The notes under the pieces are model-generated. The model saw nothing but the letters and a program-made list of their open reading frames with translations, did not search any database and was not told the origin of the DNA. Below, piece by piece: positions 4,047 to 42,721 of a DNA stretch of 46,216 nt. Numbering within the stretch: the first letter of the stretch is position 1; the number at the start of each line of letters is the position of its first letter. The stretch comes from a virus, in the IMG/VR virus record IMGVR_UViG_3300044982_000019, positions 1 through 46,216 of that record, one strand, 5' to 3'. A program made the position numbers and the translations under genes.

Positions 4047-4075
4047 TTGCGGGATACTGTCCCGTGTGCGATACT
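4047..4075 (+). promoter_or_regulatory. Predicted promoter/operator upstream of the exonuclease gene
   Basis: TTGCGG, 17-base spacer, GATACT. The 19-mer TGTCCCGTGTGCGATACTG spans 4058-4076, and the spacer also holds GGGA-TACTG-TCCC at 4051-4063. The nuclease ATG is 28 bases from the -10 with only a weak ribosome-binding site. Confidence 0.65.
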
Positions 4076-37452: not shown

Positions 37453-38757
37453 TCAGTGGCCCTTCTGGTTGCCAAGTCCGATGGACACGCCATAGACATA
37501 GGTGTCATACAGATCGTCCGGGCGCTTTGCGCTTTCGGGGTCGCCCATGCGGTAGCCCATGACCTGTGAGATGAGGTGATTCTTCGTGACGCCCTTGAAT
37601 CGAACCTGCTTGTCGTGGGCGTACTTGCTGATCTTTATCTCGCCGCGGAAGTGGTAGCCCGACGCCGTGAAGCCGCGGCCATCTTTTCCGGCGGCCACGA
37701 GGTCACTGCGAATCGGATTCGCCTTCCAGCCGTGGCGCTTGGCCTGCTGGAGCAGGATCGTCCCCGACGCCTTGTCTTCGATGTGAGGCGCCATCGCGCC
37801 CTGGCGCGCGCCGCACAGTTCGGCCAGTTGCTCCAGGCGAGCGTAGACCGATGGCAACCACGTCTCCAGAATCGCGCCCTCGATTTGGATGATGTCCCAA
37901 TCTAGGATGATCATCTTGACATCGCCATGGAACGTGCGCGCGAAGTAGGTGACGGCGGTTCCGTCATGCTCCTTGCCGTCCTTGACCGCGGAGTCGATGA
38001 CCGCGAACACGATGTCGCACTTCTTCGGGTAGTCAAAAGGTAGGCTATCGGCGTCCAGCCACTTCGGGAGTGCGAAGAAGGCTTTGCCACGCCAGTCGAT
38101 GAAGATCGCCTCGTATTCCTGAGCATGAACGTCCGGGTCGGTCTTCTCGCGTAGCTCGGCCAGCGCCTCCTCGTTCAGGTGCGGATTGAGCTTCGTGGGG
38201 ATGTGGAACTCAGTCCAGCCCTTCGATTTGTCGGTGCAGATCTCGTAGAACCATGACTCCTCAGTCGCGCCCTTCGGCGTGCCCGCGACATAGCAAGAGC
38301 CGCCCGTGTCCAGAAGCGTCGGCTCGATGGCCTGCTCGAAAATCTCCTTCAGCCCCTTCAGGACGAGGCCGGCTTCGTCGATGATGACCCGGTCGTAGTG
38401 GCGAGAGCGGCCGGCATCCGGGTTGTTCAGCGTCCAGAACTCGATGGAGCCGCCACCTTCGAGTTCAATCAGGCCGTCCGTGCGCGAGGCGCTGATGACC
38501 AGTTCCTTGACGCGCTTGAGGATCCGCTTGTACGACGGCGCCAGGAGCTTGTAGTTCGGGCAGAACCAGCCGACCTTTTCGCCCTTGATAGCCCAATTCG
38601 CGGCCATCTCTTCGAGCATCGTGGTTTTCCCGTAGCGCCGCCCGGCCCGCATGACGATGCGCGCGCGCTTCTGCCCCTTTATCGCCCGGTAGATCCGCGC
38701 CTGGTCGGCGTGGAACTTGATGAACTTGACCCGGGTTTCAGCAGCCGTCAGGGCCAT
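37453..38757 (-). CDS. terL: Terminase large subunit
   Basis: 434 residues. ATPase: Walker A RAGRRYGKTT at 37-46, Walker B VIIDEA at 124-129, and motif III AGTPKG at 158-163. The RNase H-like nuclease starts with FAVIDSAVKDG, Asp255. It packages DNA into the prohead. It overlaps the small-subunit gene by 20 bases and precedes the portal. Confidence 0.93.
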   Translation of the reverse strand: MALTAAETRVKFIKFHADQARIYRAIKGQKRARIVMRAGRRYGKTTMLEEMAANWAIKGEKVGWFCPNYKLLAPSYKRILKRVKELVISASRTDGLIELEGGGSIEFWTLNNPDAGRSRHYDRVIIDEAGLVLKGLKEIFEQAIEPTLLDTGGSCYVAGTPKGATEESWFYEICTDKSKGWTEFHIPTKLNPHLNEEALAELREKTDPDVHAQEYEAIFIDWRGKAFFALPKWLDADSLPFDYPKKCDIVFAVIDSAVKDGKEHDGTAVTYFARTFHGDVKMIILDWDIIQIEGAILETWLPSVYARLEQLAELCGARQGAMAPHIEDKASGTILLQQAKRHGWKANPIRSDLVAAGKDGRGFTASGYHFRGEIKISKYAHDKQVRFKGVTKNHLISQVMGYRMGDPESAKRPDDLYDTYVYGVSIGLGNQKGH

Positions 38758-41372: not shown

Positions 41373-41618
41373 TCATGCGTGGTCGAGGATGAAATGCGCC
41401 GCGAGGCAAAGCGCGTTGACGAGCAGGTAGCACAGGGAATAGACGACCAGCACCGTCAGGACGGCTCCGGCCTTGCGCTGGCGGAACAGGTCAGAGAGCT
41501 CTTCGAGGCCGGCGCCGTTGCGGAAATAGTCGGCGACCATCGTCGCCACGGCGGCGAACATGAACAGGGCCAGCGCGACGAGGAAGGGATGGGCGATCAC
41601 GGCGAGAAAGATTTGCAT
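41373..41618 (-). CDS. Small two-span membrane protein, 81 residues
   Basis: The ATG at 41618 has CCAGGACAGCC upstream; the upstream in-frame extension to 41726 is unlikely. Residues ~3-25 (IFLAVIAHPFLVALALFMFAAVA) and ~52-73 (AVLTVLVVYSLCYLLVNALCLAA) are transmembrane with a charged loop between. It lies in the middle of the structured late leader region, flanked by putative RNA on both sides, which is unusual. No family is recognised. Confidence 0.6.
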   Translation of the reverse strand: MQIFLAVIAHPFLVALALFMFAAVATMVADYFRNGAGLEELSDLFRQRKAGAVLTVLVVYSLCYLLVNALCLAAHFILDHA

Positions 41619-41729
41619 GGCTGTCCTGGATGGGTTGATGAAGAGGGTGCCGGCCGTACTGCTGTCCTGCCGTCTGCGTGCGCTGCAGGCTGATGCACGC
41701 TTCGCGGCTAGGGGCGCGTCGGTCATGCG

Positions 41730-42211
41730 TCAAACGAATTGGGCCGGAACTCCGTCAGGCTTTAGCCTTCACCCTCAAGTCTGGAACCCTCGTCAATGCC
41801 TCGACGCCCGTCGACGCTACATTGGCGCTCGTCTCGGTGCTACCCGCTAGGCGTCTCGTCAGTCCGCTTTGCATGGGAGTGGCCGTCTAGAGTTCCAGGC
41901 GTGAAGGCCCGGCGATGCCTCGCCGGAACTCCCGGGCCGTCACTTTCCGACCCGTCAGCCCGAAGGCTTCTCGTGGTTGTTCATGGCCCCTTACGGGGGC
42001 CGGTCGGCACTCGACACCTCAATCCGTTTGCCCTGTGCTCGGGTGATCCGCTACGTCAGGTGTCCGACGCCACGCAGTTAGGCAATTCATGCGTGGAAAG
42101 TAGCTGCAACCTTTCGGCCCGTTGCCTACTGAGAACGTTGGACTATGAGGAACCTGCGACTTCCGGCGCCCACCTTCGCAGGGTGCAAAGCGCCGACCTC
42201 TTTCGTCCGTT
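41730..42211 (-). ncRNA. Putative large structured noncoding RNA or late-operon leader
   Basis: About 480 nt downstream of a near-consensus promoter with the phage operator, with no credible gene. The minus-strand RNA has at least seven strong helices. These include GGCGC..GCGCC with inner CACC/GGUG (42165-42194), AGUAG-GCAAC..GUUGC-AG-CUACU with C(GAAA)G (42099-42130), and CCACGCA..UGCGUGG (42070-42096). CCGACC..GGUCGG (42002-42007 with 41947-41952) encloses a C(GUAA)G hairpin (41985-42001) and an AGCC(UUCG)GGCU hairpin (41957-41968). A further stem uses 41901-41904/41940-41943 and 41906-41912/41932-41938, and AGGC(UAAA)GCCU lies at 41757-41768. The stable loops exist only on this strand. 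It matches no family I recognise. Confidence 0.6.
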
Positions 42212-42217
42212 GAATGC

Positions 42218-42246
42218 AGTATCCTTTAAGGGATAGTGTCCGTCAA
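42218..42246 (-). promoter_or_regulatory. Predicted leftward promoter/operator for the structured RNA and late block
   Basis: Minus strand: TTGACG (42246-42241), 17-base spacer, GATACT (42223-42218), the closest to consensus in the genome. The operator-like 19-mer TATCCCTTAAAGGATACTG covers 42235-42217 with TATCC/GGATA arms. It lies just after the stop of the 42254 gene and faces the 30-kb late block. Start site near 42211. Confidence 0.7.
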
Positions 42247-42253
42247 GCGATAT

Positions 42254-42721
42254 TTAAACGATCCCCTTCTCGCAGAGGCGCACGAGCGAACGGAGGTGCC
42301 CCTCGTGCCAGTCGATCTCGACGGCTTGGCGCGTCACGCCCTCCGGTGGATCGGCGCGCATGTCGACGACATCGTGGCAGGCCGAACAGGCGTAGGCGCC
42401 GCAGAGATCATTGCTCTTGAGGCCCATTCCGCGGCCACCCGCGAGGCCCGGCCAGTGGCTCCATACCGTCGTCGCGCTATCGTGGTTGCAAACGTCGATC
42501 ATGCGGATTGAGCACGCCTCGCCGCGCGCGCTCTCTCGGATGCGCCGGCCTCGTGCATCAGCTGCGCTCACGACAGCATGCGGCGAAGGCGGGACGCGCG
42601 CCGGGACGGCCGGCGCAGCAGCCAGGGCCGCGGCGAGCCCGATCCCGGGCGCGGTCTTGCGCGGGCCGATGGCGCCGTCGATCTGCTTCGGCGGCCTGGG
42701 GGTTGAGCGAGCCCACGTCAT
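42254..42721 (-). CDS. DUF1364/YbcO-like putative nuclease
   Basis: 155 residues. The C-terminal two-thirds carries SIRMIDVCNHDSATTVWSHWPGLAGGRGMGLKSNDLCGAYACSACHDVVD, the pattern of the YbcO family (Zn-binding, HNH-like DNase of lambdoid phages next to ninB). The N-terminal ~60 residues are Ala/Pro-rich linker and may include a later start. It follows NinB by ATGA overlap, as in lambdoid nin regions. Confidence 0.75.
   Translation of the reverse strand: MTWARSTPRPPKQIDGAIGPRKTAPGIGLAAALAAAPAVPARVPPSPHAVVSAADARGRRIRESARGEACSIRMIDVCNHDSATTVWSHWPGLAGGRGMGLKSNDLCGAYACSACHDVVDMRADPPEGVTRQAVEIDWHEGHLRSLVRLCEKGIV

Follow-up and report, generated by a model that had tools for sequence, protein, structure and literature searches.

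On the minus strand of a 46,216-bp IMG/VR virus record (the window, that is, the whole stretch of DNA analyzed here), what stands at the head of the packaging and head operon is, judging by sequence comparison, a structured, promoter-driven RNA. We tentatively assign this RNA, whose own 3' module has diverged, to a large family of modular phage RNAs that lacks annotation, and of which it would be the local branch. The chances appear evenly balanced that the family is a widespread phage RNA class that evolves like mosaic proteins, with exchangeable pseudoknot, tRNA-like and hairpin domains, overlapping helices and a kissing twin-hairpin end, and that it serves as a scaffold in many phages of Pseudomonadota. 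To our knowledge, very few classes of large phage RNAs are known. The present family would add a further class, occurring in phages of Escherichia coli, Klebsiella, Pseudomonas and Burkholderia. Since its carriers include model phages (HK620, P1-like), deletion and testing are feasible in standard laboratory strains; it is missing from Rfam, and hence from genome annotation, although about one-fifth of complete E. coli genomes match it. Exchange of its modules would give one of the few chances to observe domain shuffling in RNA.

The window RNA, its borders and its promoter

An earlier note on this DNA placed an RNA of about 480 nt at 41730-42211. The structured minus-strand RNA stands, and the borders have to be moved: it runs from about 42214 to about 41643 (~570 nt), as delimited by conserved blocks and helices in homologues, with the approximate 5' end taken from the promoter position and the 3' end from the last conserved helix. 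The RNA thus continues beyond 41730; its closing strand, CACCCTC, occupies 41649-41643, and the ORF start at 41726 falls within the RNA. The next gene probably starts at 41618 and encodes an 81-aa protein with hydrophobic stretches (41373-41618, minus strand), which is holin-like by inspection only and found no match in a PHROG search. The RNA is flanked by a YbcO-type nuclease gene (42254-42721) on one side and, on the other, by genes leading to terminase and portal, with the terminase large subunit gene at 37453-38757 and the portal gene also beyond the RNA. The same note had seen no credible gene here and had named a conserved protein frame in homologues as evidence against an RNA; the homologues keep no frame and differ in length by hundreds of bases.

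The sigma-70 promoter (42218-42246, minus strand) is the near-consensus one reported before, with TTGACG at 42246-42241, a 17-nt spacer and GATACT at 42223-42218. It is the sole promoter-like site within 41500-42300, and its exact pattern matches once in the whole window. The shared operator noted with it is real as well: a dyad, TATCC-N6-GGATA, lies in the spacer (42220-42235), two sites with at most one mismatch are present in the window against 0.26 expected, and promoters of the same type with a spacer dyad occur at 1849-1877 and 4047-4075. These two lie upstream of a phrog_12600 gene and of a RecE-like exonuclease gene, between which sits the gene for an Erf-like annealing protein. The RNA is probably switched on together with these early recombination genes. 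Given that the operator type is common to their promoters, RNA synthesis probably starts on induction or early in infection, and because the promoter is of this early kind, "late" describes the position of the RNA, not a proven timing. In the eight relatives that reach the RNA start, CTTGAC, the spacing and GATACT are kept and the spacer sequence differs, with CTTGCA in place of CTTGAC in one of them (L006). As side observations, one phage repressor probably binds all three promoters, and a ParB-like partition protein encoded at 161-1054 hints at plasmid-like persistence of the phage.

Relatives and comparative fold

Relatives were gathered from IMG/VR by a terminase protein scan (72-83% identity) and then by pattern scans, which together gave nine contigs with the RNA, namely L002, L003 (in part), L005, L006, L007, L008, L012, L016 and L017; L002 and L007 are identical over the RNA, and L005 and L008 are nearly so. 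Conserved among them are the promoter, an H-type pseudoknot at the 5' end and a core helix of 16 bp; the remainder is swapped or interrupted by ORFs. The sequence marks that they conserve are CUCUAGACGG, CGAGAC and GGGUUCCAGACUUGAGGG; GGCCUUCAAGUCUGGAACUCUAGACGG, CGAGAC and GGGUUCCAGACUUGAGGG are nearly fixed among homologues, and the stretches between them vary or are swapped. The first ~70 nt of the RNA are the same in the window and L017, though the flanks diverge. Direct blastn of the window or L017 against the phage collection returned no matches, and a single match of L002 there was at chance level. Chance also accounts for the five matches of a contig scan with GGGTTCCAGACTTGAGG and the six contigs found with CGGGTAGCACCGAGAC, all of which lack the core. 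The motif CUGACG, proposed earlier as a mark of modular folding, is present four times in the window but missing from the compact homologue L002, and was dropped as such a mark.

Folding energy alone is weak (z -1.59, with 5 of 100 shuffles as good; z -1.30 for the opposite strand), and the proof of structure is therefore comparative. The 5' domain (42140-42208, minus strand, as are all elements below) forms an H-type pseudoknot, with the same order and spacing in all five distinct sequences. P1 pairs GGAC (42208-42205) with GUCC (42143-42140), P2 pairs CGGCGC (42195-42190) with GCGCCG (42169-42164), and the pseudoknot helix pairs CUGCGA (42181-42176) with UCGCAG (42159-42154). P2 and the pseudoknot helix are made of different base pairs in the same arrangement in five of five distinct sequences: P2 reads CUGCUGG/CCAGCAG in L002, and the pseudoknot helix reads GCGAG/CUCGC in the others. 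As MAFFT misaligned this domain, its helices were counted by position. A comparable arrangement appears in 3-9% of shuffles of any single sequence, so the weight of the evidence lies in its recurrence at one place in five sequences.

The middle part (41970-42001) comprises a hairpin, GGCCCC-CGUAA-GGGGCC (42001-41985), followed by the conserved GAACAACCA from 41982; counterparts of the hairpin, plus GAACAAC, are found in L005, L006 and L008. All three tetraloop hairpins described previously exist (UUCG, 41967-41958; GUAA, 42001-41985; GAAA, about 42116-42111). The core module (41774-41905) is built on a long helix between UUCACGCCUGGAACUC (41905-41890) and GGGUUCCAGACUUGAG (41789-41774) and holds two blocks nearly invariant in eight sequences, CUCUAGACGG (41892-41883) and CGAGAC (41836-41831). 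All 16 pairs of the core helix form in five of seven homologues, 15 in L017 and 14 in the window; in L002 it contains four G-U pairs, which would read as A-C mismatches on the opposite strand. The core helix runs straight into the 3' module (41643-41776), closed by GAGGGUG (41776-41770) and CACCCUC (41649-41643), and a CCCUC strand also follows in L005, L006 and L012. The place of this module is occupied in L005, L008 and L012 by a twin-hairpin module, which links the window to a far larger set of phages. Two side observations concern the relatives themselves. In L002 and L007, the 3' place (L002:8533-8618) lacks the twin-hairpin module and is taken by a tRNA-like fold, whose T-arm is canonical and whose acceptor-like helix has 9 bp. 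The ORFs lodged inside the RNA in four relatives, at two different places (L005:6198-6902, L008:745-1545, L006:2309-2853 and L012:788-1314), carry short tandem repeats (AYANA/ADAYA or GYGDG), the number of which varies among relatives.

The twin-hairpin module in phages

The module was discovered by blastn of the L012 RNA against named phages, by which 26 phage records were matched through ~26 nt of the 3' module, mostly in unannotated DNA. It consists, in order, of a closing helix, a hairpin with loop AGGCUGAU, a variable linker, a hairpin with loop AGAUCAGCA and a closing strand, and the family was defined by the closing helix, the hairpin with loop AGGCUGA(U), the linker and a hairpin with a loop around AUCAGC. 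The first hairpin sequence is present without change in L005 and L008, and the second in L012; scans of IMG/VR with the first and with the second hairpin each found at least 120 stretches. Named phages with the module, nearly always unannotated, include HK620, the P1-like JL22, mEp460, ZC03 and CSP3, and a blastn search with the swi2 module hit 344 phage records, many by the linker only. Among complete E. coli genomes, 1063 of 5426 match, mostly via the second hairpin and closing strand. Within the phylum of Tritonibacter (Pseudomonadota), the first hairpin with at most one mismatch occurs in 31 of 399 sampled species against one hit for a reversed control pattern, most of the 31 being one-mismatch matches of which some will be chance; none of 200 sampled species from the phylum of an Oscillospiraceae genome has it.

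A strict structural descriptor found the module in 132 of 198 fetched loci and nowhere in 2.6 Mb of reversed control. It has no match in the window, whose own 3' module is diverged, and yet the window shows the family layout of a long core helix with its 3' arm running into the GAGGGUG/CACCCUC closing strand. The window is placed in the family by synteny, by the core helix that it has in common with L005, L008 and L012, and by the modules of those relatives.

Covariation was assessed in sets of 58 and 63 sequences after removal of near-identical ones, on joined 60-nt sequences that omit the linker. The closing helix is paired in 92% and 87%, with all four Watson-Crick types at inner positions and with 126 and 141 double-sided cells, each position lying above all shuffles. 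For the first stem, sequences chosen by their second hairpin show 95% pairing, 21 double-sided cells, 10 G-U and no A-C combinations; the last two figures favor the module strand over the opposite one. The second stem has eight double-sided cells. Compensatory changes in the helices, whose absence would have spoken against the earlier proposal, are found both in the pseudoknot, with different pairs in five sequences, and in the covarying 3' module of the larger family. The twin loops are complementary (GCUGAU/AUCAGC) but invariant, so that loop covariation is uninformative; from this complementarity of invariant loops, we infer that they may kiss.

Other parts recur around the module. A long helix (score of at least 11) whose 3' arm lies no more than 30 nt from the module is found at 52 of 148 modules, L005 among those listed, against 1 of 148 when shuffled, and in the window family a long helix leads into the module in the same layout. 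Its 3' arm often overlaps the module-closing strand, so that one strand has two possible partners. In a side observation, the closing strand also complements an upstream arm in L298:5858, L204:6270, L188:1780 and others, so that three strands compete, which may be a switch or a means of joining modules. A hairpin with the hexaloop GARAGA, usually after GACA, lies upstream of 17 of 133 modules (0.5 expected at random; none on the opposite strand); it is also present in L002, L016 and L017, its strict form being absent in the window, and represents a second module linking the window family to the twin-hairpin set. T-arms of tRNAs occur in seven linkers and eight upstream stretches (0.4 and 0.8 expected), on one strand only; L002 has one, L017 two and the window none. 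Of 111 modules, 21 have a terminator no more than 160 nt behind them, against about 3 in controls, and none follows the window's own 3' module. It was further observed that in L233:1978-2063 (Kuttervirus PhaxI, tRNA-OTHER) and L109:2965-2998 a tRNA-like gene has its anticodon arm apparently replaced by a motif of about GCAGGAAAG..AACAAGGUGCCUG, which in swi2 and SopranoGao takes up the module linker as well; by sequence, it seems to be the same RNA domain on two scaffolds.

None of this matched a known class in Rfam. The window has no match in Rfam 15 at the gathering score, and only chance-level matches at E <= 10 in the region of the RNA; neither ARAGORN nor Rfam found a tRNA or tmRNA in the window; and the covariance models of GOLLD and ROOL gave no match at the gathering score or at permissive E-values. 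A weak likeness to tRNA-Sec is confined to L002 (E 0.06). A candidate tmRNA tag ORF (ANEEMYLAVA) in swi2, KP591P1 and HK620 was rejected, as its changes fit a small hairpin at least equally, and a tmRNA predicted by ARAGORN in swi2, overlapping a tRNA, was taken as spurious. The earlier remark that the RNA matches no known class and may be new is therefore supported and, with modules in hundreds of phage records, was understated. The open-access literature that was searched does not describe the family, and an earlier description may exist elsewhere.

Genomic contexts and readings of function

The settings of the module are diverse. In HK620, it lies between pR'/qut and the terminator tQ, upstream of holin S; in Pseudomonas phage ZC03, E. 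coli phage swi2, Klebsiella phage KP591P1 and P1-like JL22, it adjoins tRNA genes; and in mEp460 and many IMG/VR contigs, it is downstream of a cI-type repressor. Other contigs have it upstream of a lysozyme gene or near HNH endonuclease genes, SopranoGao near lysis genes at the genome end, and Burkholderia CSP3 directly upstream of a ssDNA-binding protein gene, and L118, L129 and L165 hold lone modules between genes. Both functions proposed in the earlier note, a free RNA and a leader that modifies RNA polymerase, remain live.

We put a little short of an even chance on a free, abundant, ornate structural RNA of the GOLLD/ROOL kind, belonging to the twin-hairpin family. In such an RNA, helix-closed modules would follow one another in the order 5' pseudoknot, middle hairpins, core and 3' module; the family hallmark is the 3' twin hairpins, with a variable linker between them in which a tRNA or a tRNA-like structure is sometimes lodged. 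By kissing, whether inside one molecule or between molecules, the twin loops would build a scaffold; in the infected cell, this would present or enclose the exchangeable parts, both the linker and the tRNA-like elements. Synthesis presumably starts on induction or early in infection. This is consistent with the conserved promoter and pseudoknot, the module covariation and strand-specific G-U pairs, the hundreds of unannotated phage occurrences without an Rfam match, the specificity of the descriptor (132 of 198 against 0 in control), the GARAGA module, the tRNA-like parts above chance and the terminators (21 of 111 against ~3), and with contexts by tRNA genes or ahead of lysis genes that resemble those reported for GOLLD and ROOL (PMC12286853). 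Against it stand the invariant loops and the diverged 3' module of the window with no terminator, and lone modules between operon genes suit a cis-element better.

GOLLD and ROOL, large RNAs that phages encode near tRNAs, form RNA-only cages and combine variable linkers with kissing loops that are conserved; GOLLD has a conserved 3' part and a variable 5' part, with tRNAs sometimes in the linker (PMC12286853). The present family is like GOLLD in its size, its frequent proximity to tRNA genes, its conserved 3' and variable 5' parts and the occasional tRNA in the linker (PMC12286853), but differs in its lack of an Rfam match, its Pseudomonadota phages, its exchangeable modules and its approximately threefold length range. 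It shares with ROOL, in which the kissing loops are conserved, a large size, a place near tRNA islands and a variable linker (PMC12286853), whereas it has no Rfam match and its putative kissing is suggested by complementary invariant loops. With bacterial Y RNA-like (YrlA) and phage tRNA-like RNAs, it has in common tRNA-like folds within a longer noncoding RNA, but there is no YrlA match above the gathering score and the window itself is without a T-arm.

The main rival, which we consider rather unlikely, is a cis-acting leader conferring put-like processive antitermination on its operon through the 3' module, the part nearest the polymerase. Put-like RNAs suppress terminators in cis through the zinc-binding domain of RNA polymerase. 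The RNA begins right at the promoter and a long operon follows it; between the NinB/YbcO genes and the RNA, no gene product was recognized as Q-like; and relatives in other phages are often behind a cI-type repressor, near an operon start. Like HK022 put, it is a structured RNA directly after a phage promoter, and its two-hairpin form resembles put (PMC9378689). However, put RNAs are ~70 nt, with two stem-loops, and function without a phage protein (PMC9378689), whereas the family spans 300-1000 nt, with a variable-linker module, tRNA-like parts and a presence in tRNA clusters, and the window RNA, at ~570 nt with a pseudoknot and core module, is no ~70-nt two-stem RNA. Moreover, Q is already encoded by HK620, with a qut site at this very place. 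There, the module resembles a lambdoid late leader (pR' leader, 6S RNA of lambda) in lying between pR'/qut and tQ, upstream of the lysis genes, whereas the window has its own early-type promoter and no recognized Q, and the lambda late leader is short and non-modular.

It is unlikely that the RNA is a 5' untranslated or intergenic element that stabilizes, processes or controls translation of the surrounding mRNA. In the window, L002 and L017, the next gene begins shortly after the RNA, solitary modules occur between genes, and L005, L006, L008 and L012 have ORFs inside the RNA, but the size and elaborate modularity, the terminators that often follow the module and the changing identity of the following gene between relatives weigh against such a role. 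That the region is a DNA-level element (a packaging, replication or recombination site) with merely RNA-like inverted repeats is very improbable, since, for all its position upstream of the terminase genes, its inverted repeats and the swapping of modules among phages, the G-U pairs are strand-specific, the T-arms are on one strand only, the promoter is conserved and the sites in other phages are far from terminase genes.

Two minor observations concern the spread of the module. HNH endonuclease genes recur beside it (L248, L253, L254, L109 and others; a cluster of 11 ORFs), and these neighboring endonucleases could spread it between phages. About one-third of its places in E. coli (389 of 1256) are plasmid-borne, probably in part on phage-plasmids.
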